Assembly (NCBI GenBank): GCA_030698575.1 | Contig: JAUYMQ010000054.1 | Location: 1 to 17,329 of the forward strand | Source of the DNA: Deltaproteobacteria bacterium | Lineage (GTDB): Bacteria > JAUYMQ01 | Length of the DNA stretch: 17,329 bases | Direction: 5' to 3' | In this document: positions 669-10,945 of the stretch, in pieces | How the letters are laid out: each line of letters begins with the position of its first letter | Numbering within the stretch: the first letter of the stretch is position 1 | Translations under genes and position numbers: made by a program | The notes under the pieces: model-generated | The model's database searches: none | Told to the model about the DNA's origin: nothing | What the model saw: the letters and a program-made list of their open reading frames with translations, nothing else

Positions 669-693
669 CCCTCGCCAGGTTGGCGGACCCGGT

Positions 694-722
694 TTTACAG
701 CGACCGCCCACGGGTCTACAAT
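694..722 (+). promoter_or_regulatory. Sigma-70-type promoter for the histidine kinase gene
   Basis: TTTACA (694-699) and TACAAT (717-722) are separated by exactly 17 bp. Each hexamer matches consensus at 5 of 6 positions. The predicted start is near 729, giving a leader of about 32 nt before the ATG at 761. The position between the M16 stop (668) and that ATG supports 761 as the kinase start over an upstream in-frame TTG at 680. Predicted from sequence only. Confidence 0.6.
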
Positions 723-760
723 TTCCCCCAGGCCGAGTTTCGACGCCTGGCGGGGAACAG

Positions 761-2731
761 ATGAGACGACGGGACGCCAAAGATCCGGGCCGGCGACCTC
801 CGCCGGAGCTCCTCAAGGGAAACTACGAGCAGTTTCTCGAGAAGATCGTCGAATCGTCGGTCGACGCCATTGTGGCGGCGGACCGGCGGGGAACGATCAT
901 CCTGTTCAACGCCGGCGCGGAGCGCATCTCGGGATACAGCGCCGAAGAGGTGACGGGCCGCCTCAACGTGGAAGCGCTCTACGCCCCGAACGTGGCGCGG
1001 GAGATCATGCGGCGGCTACGGAGCCCGGGATTCGGCGGCCGCGGCAAGCTGCTCGATTCAGTTGAAGCACTCCGCACGAAGGACGGAAGAGAGATCCCCA
1101 TCCACATCTCCGCCGCCACGCTCTACGAAGGGGGCAAGGAGCTGGCGACGGTCGGCATCTTCACCGATCTCCGCGACCTGCTCAGGCTCGAAAAGGGCAT
1201 CCGGGAGTCGGAGGAGCTGTATCGGATGATGGTGGAGCAGGCCGAGGAAGGGATCGGGATCGTTCAGCGCGGGCGCCTGCGCTTCGCCAACCGCCGTCTC
1301 CGTGAAATCCTTCAGATACCACCGGGAGAGTCCCGCAACCTCCAGCTCTCGAAGTTCCTCGACCCGGTGCTCATGCGCACCCTGGGCTTGCTCTCTTCCG
1401 GGAAGCCGGGCGTCGTCGGAGGCGGGCCCCGCGTACTCGAGGCAGCGGCGGAAATACTTGGGCGTCAGGGAGCGAGACGAAGCGTGGAGATCCTCGCCGG
1501 GCCCGTTCCCTACCGCGGCGCCGCCGCCCACCAGATCCACCTGCGCGACGTCTCGGCCAAACGTGAGCTGGAGAACACCTATCGCGTGCTCGTCGATACC
1601 GCGGCCCGGACGCGCCAGGGCATCATTCTGGTGCGAGAAGCCTTCGACGAGCCGGGTGCGGTTCTTTTCGCGAACGAGGAGTTCTGCCGCTTCACCGGAT
1701 GGGAACTCGAGGAGCTGCGCAAGCTTCCGCTGACGCAGCTGTTCACCCCGGAAGGCCTTCGCGTCGCCACAAAGGTCTACCAGCGCCTCATTCGCGGCGA
1801 AGATCTCGGCGCACCTGCGCGGCTAGTTCTTCGCACGCGGGGCGGCGAAACGATCATCGTCGAGGCGAGCACCGCCAGGACGACCTATCAGGGGCGCCCT
1901 GCGCTCATCGGCTACTGTCGCGACGTGACCGCGCACGCTCACCTCGAGCAGTTGATCGACGAGCAATCGCGGGACCTCGCGGACAAGAACAAGGCGCTGG
2001 AAGACATCCTGCATCGCCTCCGTTCCACGCAGGAACGGCTCATCGAGCAGGAGAAGCTCGCGGAACTCGGCACCTTCTCGGCCGGCATCGCCCACGAAAT
2101 CCGGAACCCGCTCGGCCTCATCCGATCTCACCTCAGATCCCTCGAAGTGAGCAGCGATGAGCGCACCAGGGCGCGGGCGCTGCGCGGAATCGAACGGCAG
2201 GTCAGCCGGTCGAGCGACTTCATCGACAAGATCCTCTCCTACGCCAGCCCGACGGCTCCCGTCCGCCGACGCCTCGATCTGAACCGCACGCTCTCGATGG
2301 CGGCGCGCTTCGCGGAAAAGGCCCTGTCGCCTCCGGCGGCGGTGCGCATCCACCGTGAGTTCGAAGAGGGCTTGCCCGCCGTCGCCGGCGATCACACGCA
2401 GCTTCAGGAAGTCTTCATCAACCTGATCACCAACGCCTTTCAGGCGGTCGGCAGGTGGGGCACGATCCGCCTCGTGACCGGCCGTGAGGGGACGGATTGC
2501 TTGCGCGTCGATATCTGCGATACGGGGCCGGGAATCGACGAAGCGTCTCTGGAGGATGTATTCCGTCCCTTCTACACCTTCGGGAAGGGGCGTGAGGGGA
2601 CGGGGATGGGACTGGCGATCGCGCGGCGCATCGTGGAGGGGCACCAGGGAAAGATCAGCGCCATCCGGAACCCGGCTGGCGGAACGACCTTCCGGGTTCT
2701 GCTGCCTCTCGAGGTGCGGGAATCCCGCTGA
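761..2731 (+). CDS. Soluble multi-PAS sensor histidine kinase (NtrB-like)
   Basis: A 656-residue sensor kinase. In order: PAS domain ~22-145 (VDAIVAADRRGTIILFNAGAE), a divergent PAS ~150-265, PAS ~272-392 (LFANEEFCRFTGW), a helical linker 395-432, HisKA with the phospho-acceptor in AGIAHEIRNP (His445), and HATPase ~545-650 with the N-box (INLITNAF), G1 (DTGPG, ~587-591) and G2 (GTGMGLAI, 613-620). No transmembrane segment is visible, so it should be cytoplasmic; its ligand is unknown. The frame extends up to a TTG at 680, but that lies upstream of a good promoter. The ATG at 761 has GGGGA four bases before it and is preferred. The next gene is an NtrC-type regulator 90 bp downstream with its own sigma-54 promoter. 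The pair probably forms a two-component system, with the kinase transcribed from the sigma-70-type promoter. Confidence 0.93.
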   Translation: MRRRDAKDPGRRPPPELLKGNYEQFLEKIVESSVDAIVAADRRGTIILFNAGAERISGYSAEEVTGRLNVEALYAPNVAREIMRRLRSPGFGGRGKLLDSVEALRTKDGREIPIHISAATLYEGGKELATVGIFTDLRDLLRLEKGIRESEELYRMMVEQAEEGIGIVQRGRLRFANRRLREILQIPPGESRNLQLSKFLDPVLMRTLGLLSSGKPGVVGGGPRVLEAAAEILGRQGARRSVEILAGPVPYRGAAAHQIHLRDVSAKRELENTYRVLVDTAARTRQGIILVREAFDEPGAVLFANEEFCRFTGWELEELRKLPLTQLFTPEGLRVATKVYQRLIRGEDLGAPARLVLRTRGGETIIVEASTARTTYQGRPALIGYCRDVTAHAHLEQLIDEQSRDLADKNKALEDILHRLRSTQERLIEQEKLAELGTFSAGIAHEIRNPLGLIRSHLRSLEVSSDERTRARALRGIERQVSRSSDFIDKILSYASPTAPVRRRLDLNRTLSMAARFAEKALSPPAAVRIHREFEEGLPAVAGDHTQLQEVFINLITNAFQAVGRWGTIRLVTGREGTDCLRVDICDTGPGIDEASLEDVFRPFYTFGKGREGTGMGLAIARRIVEGHQGKISAIRNPAGGTTFRVLLPLEVRESR

Positions 2732-2741
2732 CCCGACGGAC

Positions 2742-2757
2742 TGGCACGGGGTTTGCA
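2742..2757 (+). promoter_or_regulatory. Sigma-54 (-24/-12) promoter of the NtrC-type regulator gene
   Basis: CTGGCACGGGGTTTGCA (2741-2757) fits the published consensus YTGGCACGrNNNTTGCW at every fixed position. The GG (2743-2744) and GC (2755-2756) are 12 bp apart, as RpoN requires. It begins 10 bp after the kinase stop codon. The predicted start is near 2768, leaving a ~54-nt leader before the ATG at 2822. A 13-bp palindrome GCGGGAATCCCGC (2716-2728) lies just upstream, inside the kinase 3' end. An activator gene behind a sigma-54 promoter suggests autoregulation. Confidence 0.8.
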
Positions 2758-2821: not shown

Positions 2822-4204
2822 ATGGACAAGAGCAGGAGCAAGGTGCTCATCATCGAAGACGACGAGGAGTACCGGCAGACCTACCAGGAATGGCTCCAGC
2901 CCGAGGGCTATCAGGTGAGCTGGGCGGACAACGCCGACGATGCGGTGCGGCAGATCCGCGCAATCCGGCCCGATCTCATCCTTCTCGATCTTCGTGTGCC
3001 GCCCAAGCAGAGCGTCGAAGGAGGGCTCGAACTTCTCCGGAAGGCACGCGAGGAGCATCCGCCCGCGCGTGTCGTCATCACGACGGGAGACGGCACCAAA
3101 TCGACCGCGCTGGCGGCGGTCCGGGAGGGGGCAACGGACTATCTCATCAAGCCCATCGATCCGGACGTGCTGCTGGTCGTGATCGCGCGATCGCTTGAAC
3201 GCAAGCTCCTCGAGGATCAGGTTCGCCGGCTGCAGCAGCAGCTGGAGACACGAAACAGCTTCGAAGGGATGATCGGGAACAGCGCGAAGATGCGGGAGGT
3301 GTTCGGACTGGTCGAGAAGGCCGCGCTCACGTCGGCCAACGTTCTTCTTCGAGGTGAGAGCGGCACGGGGAAGGAGCTGGTATCGCGCGCGATTCACGCG
3401 CGGGGGCCGCGGAAGGCCGGGCCGTTCGTTACGCTCAATTGCGCTGCGCTACCGGAATCACTGCTCGAGAGCGAGCTTTTCGGCCATGAGCGAGGGGCGT
3501 ATACCGACGCAAAGCAATCGCGCGTGGGCCTCATCGAGTCGGCCGACGGCGGTAGCCTCTTCCTCGACGAGATTGGCGATCTCCCACTCTCGACCCAGGT
3601 GAAGCTCCTGCGGGTCCTCCAGGAGAGGGAGATCACACGCGTCGGAGGCAACCGCCCCAAGCGGGTGGACGTGCGGATCATTTCGGCGACGAACAAGGAT
3701 CTGGAGAAGCTGCGTGAGGAAGGAATCTTTCGTGAAGATCTCTACTACCGCCTCACTGCCTTCTCAATCTACCTTCCCCGTCTTCGATCCCGGGGCGACG
3801 ACGTGCACCTGCTCGCCCAGAGTCTTCTTGCGAAATTTACAGAGGCGGATCACAAGAACATCCTGGGCTTCTCCCCTGAAGCCGCGGACGTCCTCATGGC
3901 TTACAGCTGGCCCGGCAACGTGCGAGAGCTCGAGAACGAGATCCACGGCGCCATCGCGCGCGCCGAGCCAGACAGCTGGATCGAGTCCCGCCACTTCTCC
4001 GCGAACCTCCGTGACGCGGGGGAGATGATGCACCTCGCGGACGGCAAGCAGGGCTCTCTCAGCGATCTGCTCGCCCGGGTCGAGCGCCACCTGATTAAAG
4101 AGAAGCTCCAGCAGCATGGGGGCAACCGGACCGCGACGGCCAAGAGCCTCGGCATCTCCCGCGTGACGCTCCACCAGAAGCTGACCAAGTACAGCATCGA
4201 GTAG
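2822..4204 (+). CDS. NtrC-family sigma-54-dependent response regulator
   Basis: A 460-residue enhancer-binding response regulator. Receiver domain 6-125: acidic pair D13/D14, phospho-acceptor D56 (LILLDLRVP), K110 (YLIKPID). A linker helix 125-145 follows. The AAA+ sigma-54 activation domain (~147-375) shows Walker A GESGTGKE (178-185), sigma-54-contacting loop GAYTDA (225-230; the usual form is GAFTGA), Walker B GGSLFLDEIG (243-252) and WPGNVREL (363-370). A Fis-type helix-turn-helix (GGNRTATAKSLGISRVTLHQKL) ends the protein. The frame extends to a TTG at 2753, but that codon lies inside the -12 element of the sigma-54 promoter. The ATG at 2822, with GGAG nine bases upstream, is the better start. 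The preceding kinase gene is the likely partner. A sigma-54-like element downstream (4430) is a candidate target. The input signal and regulon are unknown. Confidence 0.94.
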   Translation: MDKSRSKVLIIEDDEEYRQTYQEWLQPEGYQVSWADNADDAVRQIRAIRPDLILLDLRVPPKQSVEGGLELLRKAREEHPPARVVITTGDGTKSTALAAVREGATDYLIKPIDPDVLLVVIARSLERKLLEDQVRRLQQQLETRNSFEGMIGNSAKMREVFGLVEKAALTSANVLLRGESGTGKELVSRAIHARGPRKAGPFVTLNCAALPESLLESELFGHERGAYTDAKQSRVGLIESADGGSLFLDEIGDLPLSTQVKLLRVLQEREITRVGGNRPKRVDVRIISATNKDLEKLREEGIFREDLYYRLTAFSIYLPRLRSRGDDVHLLAQSLLAKFTEADHKNILGFSPEAADVLMAYSWPGNVRELENEIHGAIARAEPDSWIESRHFSANLRDAGEMMHLADGKQGSLSDLLARVERHLIKEKLQQHGGNRTATAKSLGISRVTLHQKLTKYSIE

Positions 4205-4223
4205 CCGCGGGCCTCACCTGCCT

Positions 4224-4239
4224 GTTAGGAATTCCTTAC
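4224..4239. promoter_or_regulatory. Near-perfect 16-bp palindrome, candidate regulator-binding site
   Basis: GTTAGGAATTCCTTAC is symmetric at seven of eight base pairs, with an uninterrupted AGGAATTCCT core. It lies about 190 bp upstream of the sigma-54-like element at 4430, within the usual distance for enhancer sites of NtrC-type activators. No binding protein can be assigned from the sequence. Confidence 0.3.
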
Positions 4240-4256
4240 ACCTCGCCTGTTACGTT

Positions 4257-4277
4257 CCTGACCGCTCAACGGTCAGG
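4257..4277. repeat. Inverted repeat 8+5+8 after the regulator gene (operator, enhancer or weak terminator)
   Basis: Arms CCTGACCG and CGGTCAGG are perfect complements around CTCAA. The repeat starts about 50 bp after the regulator stop codon, so it could form a transcript-end hairpin, but no T-tract follows (next bases CGATAATC). A GATAAT (4279-4284) abuts its right arm, so it might instead be an operator overlapping a promoter, though no matching -35 is clear. It also lies about 160 bp upstream of the sigma-54-like element. Confidence 0.4.
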
Positions 4278-4394
4278 CGATAATCTCCTGAAATTACAGC
4301 CTTTTTATCATTACGCAATCCAGCAGCGCTTTATGGCTGTATCGATCCCTTTACGATTACACGGGTCCGCACGGGGTCGCATCCCCCAAGATCG

Positions 4395-4427
4395 GGAGGA
4401 ATCAGGGCGCTTGCAAGCCTTTCCTCC
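4395..4427. repeat. Inverted repeat adjoining the second sigma-54-like element
   Basis: GGAGGAA (4395-4401) and TTCCTCC (4421-4427) are perfect complements. Between them lies a nested 10-bp palindrome GCTTGCAAGC (4409-4418). The repeat ends two bases before the TGGCACG of the -24 element. It may be a protein-binding dyad; as RNA it would be a stem-loop in a read-through transcript. Confidence 0.4.
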
Positions 4428-4429
4428 GT

Positions 4430-4445
4430 TGGCACGTTCCTTGAA
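4430..4445 (+). promoter_or_regulatory. Second sigma-54-like promoter element
   Basis: TTGGCACGTTCCTTGAA (4429-4445) keeps the full TGGCACG -24 block and the correct 4-bp spacing to TTG. The -12 dinucleotide is GA instead of GC, so it is one base from consensus in that block. The predicted start is near 4456. The nearest downstream protein gene begins 349 nt later, so the product would be a non-coding RNA or a long leader. Proximity to a sigma-54 activator gene makes it more plausible than a chance match, but activity is untested. Confidence 0.45.
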
Positions 4446-4455
4446 GTAACAGGGG

Positions 4456-4752
4456 TTGGGGATGGCACCCCGACACCGAAACGGGTCGGAAGCGGTGACA
4501 TGGCCCGGGGTGAAAACAAGGGAGCCGGGGCGGTAGCAGGATGAGGACGGAACCCTCCTGAGCGCCAACGGCGGACAAAGGCGCAAAGGGCGCGCCCACC
4601 CGGCACGGAAGCCACAACTCCAGGGCTTCCCCTCCCGGCTCCCTGTCTCACACTCCGTCAGCGCTTTCTCCCGCGAAAGGGGGGGTGAATTTCGGATGGC
4701 CCCCATCCTCAACCCGACAGCGGGCCGGCGGTGAAGAAATTCACCGCCGGCC
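4456..4752 (+). ncRNA. Candidate structured small RNA or long 5' leader
   Basis: If the sigma-54-like element is active, transcription would cross about 300 nt with no credible reading frame. It could fold into several stems: CCGAC/GTCGG with an inner CCG/CGG (4470-4489), GCGCC/GGCGC (4562-4584), GGAAGCC/GGCTTCC (4607-4630), CTTTC/GAAAG (4664-4679), and a 13-bp hairpin with a GAAA loop (4723-4752) at the 3' end. I do not recognise RNase P, tmRNA, SRP RNA or a known riboswitch. Existence as a separate RNA is inference. The alternative is a leader of the RHH-like gene at 4805. Confidence 0.28.
4723..4752. terminator. Perfect 13-bp hairpin with GAAA tetraloop
   Basis: Arms GGCCGGCGGTGAA (4723-4735) and TTCACCGCCGGCC (4740-4752) pair without mismatch around GAAA, a stable GNRA-type loop on the + strand. 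No T-run follows on either strand, so it is not a textbook intrinsic terminator. It could still end or protect a transcript, or act as a leader structure, since it ends 52 bases before the GTG at 4805. On the - strand the loop reads TTTC, so the + strand is the better-structured RNA. Confidence 0.5.
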
Positions 4753-4804
4753 TTGCGGCATCTGGCCTGCAAGCCCCACGTAATCCCGGGGGTGGAGGGC
4801 GACG

Positions 4805-5008
4805 GTGGCACGACGGCGGAAGATCCGGTTCACCATCGCAGAAGAGGATTTCCAGCTCTTGCTGATGCTGGCGCGAACGGAGCGCAAGTCCATCGAGGAA
4901 CTCTTCCGTGAATCCGTGCCTGAAGTTTTGAGCAAGTACAGCTACCTTTGCAGATTTGTCGAGAAGAATGAGTCGTCGCACTTTTTGCATCGAAGAAAGC
5001 AACGGTGA
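4805..5008 (+). CDS. Small ribbon-helix-helix-like protein, copy A (67 aa)
   Basis: The GTG start at 4805 has a strong GGAGGG site five bases upstream, which is the main reason to accept this short gene. The protein has a basic start (MARRRKIRFTI, likely beta strand), then two predicted helices (AEEDFQLLLMLARTER and KSIEELFRESVPEVLSKY), then a basic tail (HRRKQR). A strand followed by two helices joined at Lys/Thr-Ser-Ile is the pattern of CopG/Arc/MetJ-type DNA-binding proteins, where strands of a dimer enter the major groove. It aligns without gaps to the next small gene (14 of 40 identical positions). No toxin gene is adjacent, so an antitoxin role is not supported. A DNA-binding role is inference; no specific family name is claimed. 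Confidence 0.7.
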   Translation: MARRRKIRFTIAEEDFQLLLMLARTERKSIEELFRESVPEVLSKYSYLCRFVEKNESSHFLHRRKQR

Positions 5009-5085
5009 CCGGCGTCCATGCATGCACCGCCCGCCATGCCGCCGCGAATACTCTTTCAACAGGCCGCCGTCCGGAGAAACCAGAG

Positions 5086-5343
5086 ATGCCAAGAATGAAG
5101 GACCGGGACAGGAACTGGCCGGTATCACCGGAAGAGCCGAAAGAGAAGGAAACACACGTCGTCGAGTTTCGCATCCAGGACTCCGACTTCAGGACGCTCG
5201 AGGGACTCGCCAGGGCGCGCCAGACCTCGATCGCCAGCCTGGTCAGCCAGGCGCTGCCGCTCATCATCGAGAAATTCAGGGTGCTGCGCGCGCTTGAAAT
5301 CCAGCCCGACGAGCGCGCCGGCTGGCGGCGGAAGAATGCTTAG
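5086..5343 (+). CDS. Small ribbon-helix-helix-like protein, copy B (85 aa)
   Basis: The start is taken at the ATG at 5086, with GGAGA eight bases upstream; a second in-frame ATG is at 5095. After a charged N-terminal segment (residues 1-23) comes VVEFRIQDSDFRTLEGLARARQ, then TSIASLVSQALPLIIEKF, matching the strand-helix-helix order of copy A. Shared positions are F.I...DF..L..LAR....SI..L.....P....K...L. The C-terminal tail is again basic (GWRRKNA). It lies 77 bp after copy A on the same strand; the gap holds nothing recognisable. The stop is only 2 bp from the end of the convergent glycosyltransferase gene, with no hairpin between them. It is probably a DNA-binding regulator that may homodimerise or pair with copy A. 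This is inferred from shape, not from a recognised family. Confidence 0.72.
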   Translation: MPRMKDRDRNWPVSPEEPKEKETHVVEFRIQDSDFRTLEGLARARQTSIASLVSQALPLIIEKFRVLRALEIQPDERAGWRRKNA

Positions 5344-5345
5344 GC

Positions 5346-6875
5346 TCAGTGCCCGACGAAACCGACGAAGAAGAAATAAAGAACGAGGAGCGCCGCGAGG
5401 ATCGGAAGGACACCGACAATGTAGAAGGGCACGCGCGTCCAGGTCTGATCCCCAGGCGGAAGCGGGCGCGGCCACGCCTCGTCCTTCTCCGGCTCTTCGG
5501 CGGGCGGCACGCCGGTCGAACCTCCCGCGCTCCGCGCGAGCAGAGCAAGCGTCGGAAAGTACTCCATGAGCAGAACCCAGGCCGGCACGAGCCCCGACGG
5601 CGCCGCAAACTTCAGGTAGCTGAACCCCGCGGCGCCCGAGAACCAGATCCACGCAGGCGAGAGCGTGACCGCAGAGAGCGCCACCAGCCCCCAGGCGTAC
5701 CAGGGCTCCACGGCCGGCATCACGAACAGCAACCACCCGCCCAGCAGGGCCATCGCGCGGCGGCTCACGCTCCCCGCCGTCTCACCCTTGAAGAGAACCC
5801 GCACCGTGAAGATCAGGTAGCCCGCGAGCAGAATGCGTCCCGCCGATTTGGCGAATCGCCATGGATCGTCGAACCCGGCGACCCAGGCGAGCAGGTAGCG
5901 CAGGGCGGTTCTGACGCCGGCGTTGAACTCCTCGTAGTCCGCTCCCAGCCGGATGGGCAGGTGGCCCCAGAGCCCCCCGTCCATGACTACGAAGGGCGCG
6001 TATCCGACCACGAGCGTCGCCAGAAACGCCAGCGGCAGCCGGGGATCGAAGCCGGCGATTCCGCGCCGCCCCGGCCCGGCCCGCTGCATGAGAGCCGGCA
6101 AAATGACCATTGGATAGATTCGCGCCAGCGTCGCGAGCCCGAGCGCGATCCCCGCGGCACCCCGGCGCCCTTCGAGTCGGAACACAAGCGCCAGCAAGAA
6201 GAACGGAAGCATTAGGGGATCGCTGTGTCCGCCCCGGGTGATCTCGATCACGATGAGCGGATTCCAGAGGTACACCGCCGACTGAGCAAGAGGGCGCCCC
6301 TCGCGGCGAAGCAGCGCGAGGAGGGCGAATACGCCCAGCGCCTCGAAGACAAGGAACGTAAGCTTCAGGCCCAGCGCGTCCGGGCGAAGGGATGCGAGAA
6401 CGGCGAAGACCCATTGTGACAGGGGCGGATAGACTCCAATCACATCAGGGCGGTTCAACTGCATGTGGAGGGCATCGTAACGAAAGGGCGCGAGGGCGGG
6501 CGCGTTCGGCGCAAGGGCGTAGGGATTCACGCCGCCGCTGAAAACGCGGCCGTCCCACAGATACCGGTGATAATCGCTTGAAAGATCCGGATCGCCCGGA
6601 AGCAGCACCAGGCGGAAGAGCACCGCCAGCAGGAGCACGAAGAGAAGGGCCCGCCGGTCACCGGCCGCATTCGTCGGCGGCGTGCGCGCCACCCACAGGA
6701 CCGCCGGCAGGTAGGTGCACCAGAGCAGCCACCAGAGGACGGAGGTGCTGCTGAAGACGGACGGATGCCTGCCCGTGAGAGTGGCGATCAACTCGGGCCA
6801 CTGGTTGTAGCCGGCGTAGATGACCAGGGAGACCAGGCCCGACAGCAGGAGGGATCTCGGCAGACGCTCGTTCAT
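5346..6875 (-). CDS. GT-C fold polytopic membrane glycosyltransferase (polyprenyl-phosphate-sugar type, GT87/MptB-like)
   Basis: A 509-residue protein with about a dozen hydrophobic segments. The first large extracytoplasmic loop carries SDYHRYLWDGRVFSGGVNPY (residues ~100-119), the signature of the GT-C mannosyl/glycosyltransferase group, with Asp101 a likely catalytic acidic residue. Further family-like motifs are VYPPLSQWVFA (~148-158) and WNPLIVIEITRGGHSD (~204-219). Such enzymes take a sugar from a polyprenyl-phosphate donor on the outer face of the inner membrane and add it to a lipid, glycan or protein. A hydrophilic, Pro/Glu-rich segment (~455-485) precedes a last membrane helix. The start ATG is close to AGGA and GAGG. 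The gene is divergent from a surface glycoside hydrolase, which suggests a glycan-related locus. Donor and acceptor sugars cannot be named. Confidence 0.85.
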   Translation of the reverse strand: MNERLPRSLLLSGLVSLVIYAGYNQWPELIATLTGRHPSVFSSTSVLWWLLWCTYLPAVLWVARTPPTNAAGDRRALLFVLLLAVLFRLVLLPGDPDLSSDYHRYLWDGRVFSGGVNPYALAPNAPALAPFRYDALHMQLNRPDVIGVYPPLSQWVFAVLASLRPDALGLKLTFLVFEALGVFALLALLRREGRPLAQSAVYLWNPLIVIEITRGGHSDPLMLPFFLLALVFRLEGRRGAAGIALGLATLARIYPMVILPALMQRAGPGRRGIAGFDPRLPLAFLATLVVGYAPFVVMDGGLWGHLPIRLGADYEEFNAGVRTALRYLLAWVAGFDDPWRFAKSAGRILLAGYLIFTVRVLFKGETAGSVSRRAMALLGGWLLFVMPAVEPWYAWGLVALSAVTLSPAWIWFSGAAGFSYLKFAAPSGLVPAWVLLMEYFPTLALLARSAGGSTGVPPAEEPEKDEAWPRPLPPGDQTWTRVPFYIVGVLPILAALLVLYFFFVGFVGH

Positions 6876-7031: not shown

Positions 7032-9320
7032 ATGCCGATCACGCCGGATCGCCCGAAACGAAAGGTCGTCACGGAAAGCGGGGGGAGCGCCCGAACCATC
7101 GCCCTCCTGGCCGCGCTTTCCTTCGCCCTCGCGGGCGCCTTTCTGCTCGCCCGTTTCCGGGCCTGGCACGCGCCCGATCCGCCACCCGGGCAAGAGATAG
7201 TCCTGATCGACGATTTCGAGGGATATGCCGACGAGCCCGCTCTTCGCGCCCGATGGGGGGGAGGAAGCGCTCCCGGCGCCCCGGCGCTTCCCCGGCTCGA
7301 GCATGCCATGGCCCTCGGTGGACGGAGCGCGCTCGGCGCCCGGATCGACGCGGGAGATCGGGGCGCCTGGCGGCCGCTGCGACTTGAAACAGGAGGCGGG
7401 ACGGTTCCAGCCAACTGGTCAGGCCACGAGACCCTGGCCTGCATGACCCGCTCGCTGGGCGCCGGCGAGGACGGACACCCGGCGGCGGCCCCGGGGCACG
7501 TTCACGATCTAGGCGATTACCTCTTCGTCGAGGTGGAAGCGCCTGACGCCCACAGCGGCCTCTGGCGCCGCGCCGCGCTACGGGCCGAGCGCAACCGCCG
7601 CTACCTCTCCTGGAGCAGCTGGAGCCGCTGGCAGGTCGATCTGCGGGGCGATCCGGACGCGCGTGGCCTCGATTGGCGCCGCGTACGCGCCCTGCGCGTT
7701 GCCGCAGCGGGAAGTTCCCCCATGCCCGTCTTCATCTATCTGGACCACTGCCGCCTCGAATCCCGCTACCGCCCCGTGCAGGACGCCGAATACACCTTTC
7801 TCGGCGTGAACATGTGGGACCTCTGGGGTCGGGGGGACGGGCCCTTCAAGGGGATGGATCTCCGTCGTCCCTTTGATGACGCCCTCCGTCGGGACATCCG
7901 GGAAAAACTCTCCTACCTCGCCGGGAAACGGATCCCCATCCTTCGGATCTTTCTCGACTACCACCTCGAGATCGATCCGGGCCGTGGAGTTTTCGAGGAC
8001 GATGTCCTCCGGCGAATCGATTTCGTCATCGACACGATCAGGGGGGAAGGCTGGCCGATGCGGCTCCTGATCAGCCTCTCCACCGGCTACGATCTGCAGA
8101 CCGGAATCAGCTGGTACACGCGGCAGGTCGAGGGCGACACCTACGCGAAGGTGCGGGCCTTTTACGTGGATCCCGCGCTCCGGGAGATCTACACGAAACA
8201 GATACTCCACGTCCTCGATCACGTGAACCCCTCCAGCGGGCTCCCGTGGAAGGAGGAGCCCGTGATCTGGGGCTGGGACGTCTCGAACGAGCCCCGCATC
8301 CTCTACGGGACCCCCGGCACGAGCTACGCCTCGCGCACGCGCGAGATGGTGGCCTGGTACGCCCAGATGTCGGGCGTCATCCGGAGCTTCGACACACGGC
8401 ACCGCATTGTCTCGGGCACCTTCTACAGCGGCAACGGGATCGAACCTCACGACAGCGATTACGACGACTGGAACATCTGGGAGCTGTTCACGCTGGACAC
8501 GATAGACGCCCTCTCCGTTCAGTCCTACGTCGGCCCCCACCTCCTGCGCACCGGACCGAAGCCGCTGATCCTGGAAGAGTTCGGCTATGGCGGCGCGTAC
8601 TTCGAGGACCCCACGGATGAGAAGCGCGCGGAGAACTACCGCTGGATGTTGCTCGACGGCGACAAGGTCTACCCTTCCGGCGTCGGGGCGCTGCTCTGGC
8701 AGATGAACTGGAATCACGGCTATGCCGACGGCAAGGAAATCCACTCGAGCCCGCCCTCGATGGAGTTCCAGTTCTCCCCCAAGCTTCGAAACAGCTCCCT
8801 GGATCTGTTCGAGTTCTACCTCGCGAAGTACAACCGGCTCACCGTCGAGCCCGAAGTCGAGGAGGGGTGGGGCCATTTCGGGGATCTTCGATGGCGCCAC
8901 CGCTCGATCCAGGGGCCCGTGGTGGTCGTCGAAAGCGAGCGTTTCGGAGACGGGTACGTGACGACGGTGGATGCCGGGAAGGGGCGCGGCCTGCGCGCCC
9001 TCTACGACCGCCTGCGATTGATGCTGGGGGCGCAGGGCCGGCTGGAGAACCGTATTTTCATCCCGAGGACGGGCCGCTACCGGCTGGAGGCCCGGGCCCG
9101 CGGGCCGGCGGATCGCTCGGGACTGCTCGAGGTTCGCATCGATGGTGATCCGCCGCGGCGCATCACCGTTCCCGCCGCTGGGGCGGCGGCTCAATGGCAC
9201 CGCGTCACGCTGGAGGAGCCGATCACGCTCCGTCACGGCGCACACGTCATTCGCATCGACCTCTGCACCGAGGGCATCGCGCTCGACCGCTATCGCCTCA
9301 TTCCCCTCGAACCCGCTTAA
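7032..9320 (+). CDS. Membrane-anchored glycoside hydrolase, clan GH-A (GH5-like), with flanking beta-sandwich domains
   Basis: A 762-residue protein from the ATG at 7032. A basic start and one hydrophobic helix (~27-45, TIALLAALSFALAGAFLLA) suggest an uncleaved anchor with the rest outside the cytoplasm. Residues ~60-245 look like a beta-rich carbohydrate-binding domain starting IVLIDDFEGY. The catalytic barrel starts at FLGVNMWDLW (~256). WDVSNEP holds the putative acid/base Glu420, and LILEEFGYGG holds the putative nucleophile Glu516, both on typical GH-A strand ends and closest in style to GH5 mannanase-like enzymes. The last ~130 residues (RIFIPRTGRYRLEARARG...) resemble a CBM6/35-type sandwich. 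An earlier in-frame ATG (6942) sits within the promoter. GGAGG at 7009-7013 is 18 bases from the start and could pair with CCTCC (7019-7023). The substrate is unknown; a beta-linked polysaccharide is likely. Confidence 0.85.
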   Translation: MPITPDRPKRKVVTESGGSARTIALLAALSFALAGAFLLARFRAWHAPDPPPGQEIVLIDDFEGYADEPALRARWGGGSAPGAPALPRLEHAMALGGRSALGARIDAGDRGAWRPLRLETGGGTVPANWSGHETLACMTRSLGAGEDGHPAAAPGHVHDLGDYLFVEVEAPDAHSGLWRRAALRAERNRRYLSWSSWSRWQVDLRGDPDARGLDWRRVRALRVAAAGSSPMPVFIYLDHCRLESRYRPVQDAEYTFLGVNMWDLWGRGDGPFKGMDLRRPFDDALRRDIREKLSYLAGKRIPILRIFLDYHLEIDPGRGVFEDDVLRRIDFVIDTIRGEGWPMRLLISLSTGYDLQTGISWYTRQVEGDTYAKVRAFYVDPALREIYTKQILHVLDHVNPSSGLPWKEEPVIWGWDVSNEPRILYGTPGTSYASRTREMVAWYAQMSGVIRSFDTRHRIVSGTFYSGNGIEPHDSDYDDWNIWELFTLDTIDALSVQSYVGPHLLRTGPKPLILEEFGYGGAYFEDPTDEKRAENYRWMLLDGDKVYPSGVGALLWQMNWNHGYADGKEIHSSPPSMEFQFSPKLRNSSLDLFEFYLAKYNRLTVEPEVEEGWGHFGDLRWRHRSIQGPVVVVESERFGDGYVTTVDAGKGRGLRALYDRLRLMLGAQGRLENRIFIPRTGRYRLEARARGPADRSGLLEVRIDGDPPRRITVPAAGAAAQWHRVTLEEPITLRHGAHVIRIDLCTEGIALDRYRLIPLEPA

Positions 9321-9400
9321 AGTTCCCCCCCGACCCTGCCGATGCGCCAACGAGACGGGAGGGCGATTCCGCGCCCTGCCCCCTCCGCGGACACGCTTTC

Positions 9401-10945
9401 ATGGCCGGCAACTCCCAGACAATGGCATTCTGCAACGAGCTCAAGCGGCTCATTGCGGCCAAGTGCACCCTCATCCAGCTTGAAACCTACGAGGAAGAAC
9501 GGGCCGAGCGCCTCATCAGCGCGGTCGCGGCGGGGCTGTTCGCCCGCCCGGTCCCGATTTCCCGCTGGACCTGCACGGACGGCCTCTCCGGCCCCGAGGG
9601 GCCAATGCCTGAAACCCGGGAGCCGCGGGCTGTGCTCGACTACATCTACTCGAACCGGGAAGCCGGCATCTTCATCCTCGAGGATTTCAATCCCTTCCTG
9701 AAGGACAACCCGCCGCTCAAGCGGAGGCTGCGGGATCTCGCGCGGGAGTGCGCCTCGAACTACGTGACCGTTATCCTGCTCGGCCCCCGGGCGGACCTCC
9801 CGGAGGATCTCCACCGCGACGTCGCGGTGCTCGACGTGCCGCTCCCCGACGAAAGGGAAATCCAGGAAACGCTCGATCGGATTCTCCGTGAATCGTCGCG
9901 TACGGCCGTCCTGGCGGACGGCCTGGGCGAAAGCCTCAGGACGCAGATCAGTCGCGCGGCTCTCGGCCTGACCGAGCGTCAGGCCTCCGAGGCCTTCAGG
10001 AAGGCCCTCGCGGGAAAGGCATCGATCGAGGACGGGGTTGTGAAGCTGGTGATTCAGGAAAAGAGCCAGCTTGTCAGAAAGGCGGCTGCGCTCGAATTCA
10101 TCGAGGAACTCCCCACGCTGGATGAGGTCGGCGGCCTCGACAATTTCAAGGCCTGGCTGCGCAAGCGCAGCGGCGTGCTCGGCGAAGCCGCACGCCTGGC
10201 GAAGATCGCGCCGCCAAAGGGCGTTCTTCTCACCGGCGTCTCCGGGTGCGGCAAGAGCTTCTGCGCGAAGGCCATCGCGAGCTTCTGGCAGATCCCGCTC
10301 CTTCGCTTCAACATGAGTAATCTCTACACCGGCAGCTCGGGGCTCTCCCCCGAAGAGGCCATGCGCCAGACCATCCGTATTGCCGAAACGGTGGCTCCCT
10401 GCGTGTTCTGGATCGACGAGATCGAGGCGGGCGTCTCGATCAACACGCAGAAAGCCGGGCAGGGATCGGCCTCGCGCGTGTTCGCGACCTTCCTGAACTG
10501 GATGCAGGAGAAGCGGGCTTTCGTTTTCGTGGCCGCCACCGCCAACGTAATCGATCTCTTGCCGCCCGAGATCCTGCGCAAGGGGCGGTTCGACGAAATC
10601 TTCTTCGTGGGGCTTCCGAGCATGGAGGAGCGCCTGGAGATCTTCAAGATTCACCTGGCGCGGACGGGGCAGGATCCGAACGGTTTCGATGTCCGGGCGC
10701 TGGCCAAGAACACCAACGGTTTCAATGGCGCGGAGGTCGAGCAGGTGGTGACCTGCGCGCTCGTCGAGGCATTCAACGCCGAACGAGCCCTCACGCAGAA
10801 CGATCTGGTCGTGAACGCCGGATCGATCGTTCCTCTTTCGGTCACGATGCGCGAGGAAATCGGGCGGATGGAACGCTGGGCCCACTCGCGCGCCGTTCTG
10901 GCGTCGGCCCCCAAGGGCGTCAAGGCGGGCTCTCCCGCAGCCTAG
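9401..10945 (+). CDS. Ycf46-like AAA ATPase
   Basis: A 514-residue protein matching the Ycf46 group of AAA ATPases, known from plastid genomes, cyanobacteria and scattered other bacteria. The N-terminal ~230 residues (ELKRLIAAKCTLIQLETYEEERAERL..., IFILEDFNPFL) are the conserved non-ATPase region with a degenerate P-loop-like fold. The AAA module begins at LPTLDEVGGLDNFKAWLRKR. It shows Walker A GVSGCGKS (Lys285), Walker B VFWIDEIE (Asp339/Glu340), sensor-1 region FVAATAN and ILRKGRFDEIFFVGLP with the arginine typical of this clade. A short helical tail follows. In Synechocystis Ycf46 has been linked to inorganic-carbon use; its role in non-phototrophs is not established. The start is 9401 or the ATG at 9422; neither has a clear ribosome-binding site. 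The 80-bp gap after the hydrolase has a weak 6-bp hairpin (9360-9377), so co-transcription is possible. Confidence 0.88.
   Translation: MAGNSQTMAFCNELKRLIAAKCTLIQLETYEEERAERLISAVAAGLFARPVPISRWTCTDGLSGPEGPMPETREPRAVLDYIYSNREAGIFILEDFNPFLKDNPPLKRRLRDLARECASNYVTVILLGPRADLPEDLHRDVAVLDVPLPDEREIQETLDRILRESSRTAVLADGLGESLRTQISRAALGLTERQASEAFRKALAGKASIEDGVVKLVIQEKSQLVRKAAALEFIEELPTLDEVGGLDNFKAWLRKRSGVLGEAARLAKIAPPKGVLLTGVSGCGKSFCAKAIASFWQIPLLRFNMSNLYTGSSGLSPEEAMRQTIRIAETVAPCVFWIDEIEAGVSINTQKAGQGSASRVFATFLNWMQEKRAFVFVAATANVIDLLPPEILRKGRFDEIFFVGLPSMEERLEIFKIHLARTGQDPNGFDVRALAKNTNGFNGAEVEQVVTCALVEAFNAERALTQNDLVVNAGSIVPLSVTMREEIGRMERWAHSRAVLASAPKGVKAGSPAA

Follow-up and report, generated by a model that had tools for sequence, protein, structure and literature searches.

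We found that the intergenic region 4205-4804 (hereafter the gap) of the 17,329-nt stretch of DNA analysed here (hereafter the window) probably holds a unit controlled by sigma-54 and an activator, whose first 300 nt are a structured RNA, be it the leader of the genes that follow or a free molecule. A draft genome of 4.13 Mb in 653 contigs, the sole member of its phylum among the genomes that we searched, includes the window as its contig C578. From the arrangement of the sequence features, we infer that the response regulator encoded next to the gap (or a relative) would bind a tandem box at 4223-4254 and, once bound, would activate the sigma-54 polymerase at a promoter-like element at 4430-4444. 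The first 300 nt of the transcript, from a start near 4456, would form a compact RNA with a multibranched fold that is closed end to end, and a 13-bp GAAA hairpin would be its last element. This RNA would serve as the leader of an operon of two genes for ribbon-helix-helix-like (RHH-like) proteins, or would be freed from the operon transcript by processing or partial termination.

The gap is preceded on the + strand by the genes of a sensor histidine kinase (680..2731; PAS domains, HisKA, and HATPase_c in Pfam) and of an NtrC/AtoC-type response regulator (2822..4204). The Pfam domains of the latter (receiver, sigma-54 interaction domain, and Fis HTH) bear out the first-pass annotation, which had called it an NtrC-type sigma-54 activator. 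The open reading frame of the regulator opens at TTG 2753, but ATG 2822 is the likelier start because TTG 2753 would overlap an exact sigma-54 promoter consensus, TGGCACGGGGTTTGC, found by motif scan closely 5' of the gene (2742..2756, + strand). With this site before ATG 2822, the regulator may itself be under sigma-54 control. No orthologue of the regulator was found in 241 genomes, the best identity being 46-48%. Elsewhere in the window, a conserved AAA ATPase (9194-10945) had its nearest relatives in Syntrophaceae/Deltaproteobacteria MAGs (61-63% identity), and a search for relatives of the phylum with this protein as bait recovered only these and Cyanobacteria (45%).

In the gap itself, no reading frame showed a codon usage like that of the genes beside it, in agreement with the earlier description of about 300 nt devoid of a protein gene. 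A tRNA or tmRNA was excluded as the identity of the gap, as was a mobile repeat element, since the gap sequence is single copy in the genome.

The motif scan located the sigma-54-like element TGGCACG-N4-TTGA, TGGCACGTTCCTTGA, at 4430..4444 on the + strand, where it had been reported at first reading. It differs from TGGCACG-N4-TTGC by a single mismatch, at the C of the -12 block; judged by the sigma-54 rule (-24 GG, -12 GC, and spacing), its -24 block is perfect and its -12 reads GA. The TTGA variant occurs at least twice in the genome among the sites listed, the second time within an open reading frame, against about 1.8 expected by our own arithmetic from genome size and composition, so that the variant by itself does not exceed what chance predicts for the genome. 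Exact TGGCACG-N4-TTGC sites do exceed chance, with 17 in the genome against about three estimated. Outside the window, 15 of the 16 exact sites examined were intergenic, many of them ahead of genes of the sort that sigma-54 typically controls, and the genes behind exact sites included pilin-like, P-II/ammonium transporter-like, and response-regulator genes (names read from translations). These promoters, together with the activators, suggest that the host genome encodes rpoN and uses sigma-54. The 17-kb window contains only two such cores, the exact one at 2742 and the one at 4430 that is one base off, on either side of the regulator gene. In addition, the run TTGGCACGTTCCTTG within the 4430-4444 element is identical to the exact site of contig C70, which stands behind the best-matching paralogue of the window's kinase.

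The body of the RNA, delimited by folding and by our covariance model R1, spans 4453..4719 on the + strand and is closed by GGGTTGGGGATGG / CCATCCTCAACCC. Its closing helix begins at 4453, within 3 nt of the start predicted from the sigma-54-like element (about 4456). Compared with shuffled sequence, the + strand had a fold z-score of -6.0 at 4452-4760 and of -5.8 at 4455-4757, consistent with the several stems noted previously; because the shuffles are random, z-scores shift by about half a unit from run to run. With the end hairpin removed (4455-4719), the z-score was still about -4 on the + strand versus -1.3 on the - strand. The remaining 250-nt windows of the record gave a mean z of -0.1 (sd 1.0). 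Thus, of the earlier proposal of a sigma-54-dependent structured RNA, the non-coding character, the folding of the + strand, the adjoining activator, and the fit between predicted start and 5' end of the fold all held, while the imperfect -12 block makes sigma-54 dependence less certain.

These features could be a coincidence, the sigma-54 match being due to chance and the GC-rich, foldable stretch being an inert intergenic relic or an inverted-repeat element acting at the DNA level, with the 13-nt terminal inverted repeats GGGTTGGGGATGG / CCATCCTCAACCC as its proposed ends. The TTGA variant is indeed at chance frequency, two of the 64 other long intergenic regions surveyed in this genome have z-scores of -6 or below (about 3%; one of the two holds an obvious repeat family), and no conservation was demonstrable, homologues of the gap not having been found in the genomes searched. 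Against this explanation stand the single copy of the gap sequence, the asymmetry of folding between the strands, the agreement of the predicted start with the fold, and the rare tandem box that the gap also contains, and we consider it unlikely. We also observed one intergenic region (L094:377-714, in C228) that folds strongly on either strand (z about -6).

The perfect 13-bp hairpin GGCCGGCGGTGAA-GAAA-TTCACCGCCGGCC is present at 4723..4752, with its GAAA loop on the + strand, and the first-pass annotation had placed the end of the RNA there. The stem is perfect, but the sequence 3' of it is TTGCGGC, with no U-run, and a search for intrinsic terminators (GC-rich hairpin followed by a U-run) called none on the + strand. 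In this respect it departs from the genome's other sigma-54 non-coding units. Three of those lie behind exact sigma-54 sites (C80:3504+, L049; C304:6615+, L054; C403:581+, L056) and one behind a site with one mismatch (C61:155+, L074; a partial 98% copy is present in C128, L085). In each of the four, 200-400 nt of DNA that appears to be non-coding lead from the site to a U-run terminator, and there was no Rfam match; we regard them as candidate sigma-54 small RNAs. Without their terminator hairpins, most of the folding signal of these other sigma-54 units disappeared, their + strand z-scores ranging from +0.3 to -2.6, as against about -4 for the window RNA. The genome also has a c-di-GMP-I riboswitch (60.6 bits; L127:271-434, in C487) directly 3' of a one-mismatch sigma-54 site.

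Downstream of the hairpin, a Shine-Dalgarno-like GGAGGG (4794..4799) lies 5 nt 5' of GTG 4805, the start of a small orphan RHH-like protein of 67 aa (4805..5008, + strand). A second RHH-like protein on the same strand (5086..5343) is a paralogue of the first and its only further match in the genome; its open reading frame opens at GTG 5005, ATG 5086 being the likelier start. We found no homologue of the pair in the collection of genome contigs and none of the first protein in 386 genomes (best E about 0.005 in these searches).

Because the hairpin has no U-run and is followed by two codirectional RHH-like genes with a good ribosome-binding site, the most likely single reading is a sigma-54 unit that has the gap as its regulatory front and whose RNA is the structured leader of the RHH operon, or arises from the operon transcript through processing or partial termination; taken by itself, we hold this reading to be a serious possibility, somewhat short of an even chance. 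A free sigma-54-dependent small RNA that ends near 4755 and, like GlmY or Qrr, acts in trans, the reading favoured in the first-pass annotation, is rather unlikely in our view. It would fit the fold closed end to end with its terminal GAAA hairpin, the gene layout, which is that of glmY beside its sensor-regulator operon (PMC8745638), and the precedent of the C80, C304, C403, and C61 units; the U-run that those units have is missing here, however, and about 50 nt further on comes the start of the RHH gene, with its good ribosome-binding site. A leader or processed RNA is thus somewhat likelier than a separately terminated one. In Proteus mirabilis, glmY and the qseEGF genes downstream of it are transcribed together (PMC8745638), so that the leader and free-RNA readings are not exclusive.

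The leader could also be transcribed from a different promoter, independent of sigma-54. The ribosome-binding site at 4794-4799 and the two paralogous genes in line would fit such a leader. No sigma-70-like promoter was detected in 4150-5400 with the E. coli consensus, which may not fit the housekeeping promoter of this phylum. Considering that a tandem box and a sigma-54-like element are both there, we judge a promoter of this kind improbable, and keep to a unit under sigma-54.

The tandem box, found by motif search, comprises an enhancer-like 18-bp palindrome, TGTTAGGAATTCCTTACA (TGT-N12-ACA, 4223..4240), and a second half-site, TGTTACG (4248..4254, + strand), 25 bp past the first. With up to two mismatches allowed, the pattern TGTNNGGAWTTCCTNACA-N7-TGT occurs four times in the genome, all four with equal half-site spacing, against 0-1 at up to three mismatches in the control. 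Besides the window copy (4223-4250), these are C87:2191 (L181), 5' of a PEP-CTERM protein gene, and C567:4762-4789 (L182) and C312:4368-4395 (L055), each before a large RHS-like gene behind an exact sigma-54 promoter, at 151 and 148 bp from that promoter, respectively. The window box lies 190-207 bp 5' of the 4430-4444 element. The published site of QseF/GlrR at the sigma-54 promoter of the small RNA gene glmY is TGTC-N10-GACA (PMC8745638); the C567 and C312 boxes have exactly this form, and the window copy, TGTT-N10-TACA, is two bases off it. We hypothesize that the tandem box is an enhancer for the 4430-4444 element, a role that is uncertain because the C567 and C312 boxes sit downstream of their promoters.

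We found no homologue of the RNA in the collections searched. Rfam gave no credible match for the window or the gap, either at gathering thresholds or at E up to 10. A nucleotide search of the same genome, 98 genomes, plasmids, and phages matched the gap with itself and with chance sequences only. The covariance model of the gap RNA recovered only itself in its own genome and nothing convincing in 386 genomes; a weak match to its own minus strand and one partial match of 59 nt were treated as chance. The motif CGGGGTGAAA(A)CAAG, common to the gap and the C304 unit, was dropped as being compatible with chance.

We conclude that the control unit is probably new yet lineage-specific, and of a known type of control. 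As far as we know, most of the sigma-54-dependent RNAs that have been characterised are from Proteobacteria. If our interpretation is right, a structured sigma-54 RNA with an enhancer box of the glmY type would exist in an unrelated phylum, which would suggest that the coupling of a sensor-regulator pair with an adjacent RNA is more widespread. The rarity of the tandem box predicts a small regulon, which is testable. More tentatively, and with considerable doubt, the window could carry a new activator-controlled sigma-54 RNA of about 300 nt from a phylum with almost no sequenced members; this RNA would belong to a set of several non-coding units that sigma-54 drives in this genome, and would be co-regulated with the cell surface through the box common to it and surface-protein genes.

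Three known systems offer themselves for comparison. In the PEP-CTERM regulon of PrsK/PrsR (PMC1569441), the regulator PrsR is the second-best named match of the AtoC-like window regulator, and a tandem box is also found 5' of a PEP-CTERM gene in the window's genome. The window regulator scored 428 bits with the PrsR model TIGR02915, below its cut-off of 502.6, and no PEP-CTERM gene was recognised within the window. The published PEP-CTERM motif 1 terminates in TTTACA (PMC1569441); we rejected it as the identity of the tandem box, which lacks this end and differs in sequence.

The GlmY system of Enterobacteria, with QseE/QseF (GlrK/GlrR), likewise has kinase and sigma-54 activator genes adjoining a sigma-54-controlled structured RNA, and its enhancer boxes are of the TGTC-N10-GACA type. 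It differs in that the window RNA is about 300 nt long, matches it neither in sequence nor in Rfam, has an imperfect -12 element, and comes after the kinase-regulator genes, whereas glmY comes before them. The regulator reached 311 bits with the QseF/GlrR model NF011695 (cut-off 763). In Vibrio, the activator gene luxO similarly adjoins a sigma-54-driven non-coding unit, Qrr, but the window RNA is about three times as long as the Qrr small RNAs, and the regulator scored 347 bits with the LuxO model NF041946 (cut-off 800). The Rfam models of GlmY/GlmZ and of Qrr had no match in the window or the gap, whether at the gathering threshold or with E values as high as 10, and the absence of sequence likeness remarked on in the first-pass annotation thus stands. 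The window unit is like glmY and Qrr in layout and a member of neither.
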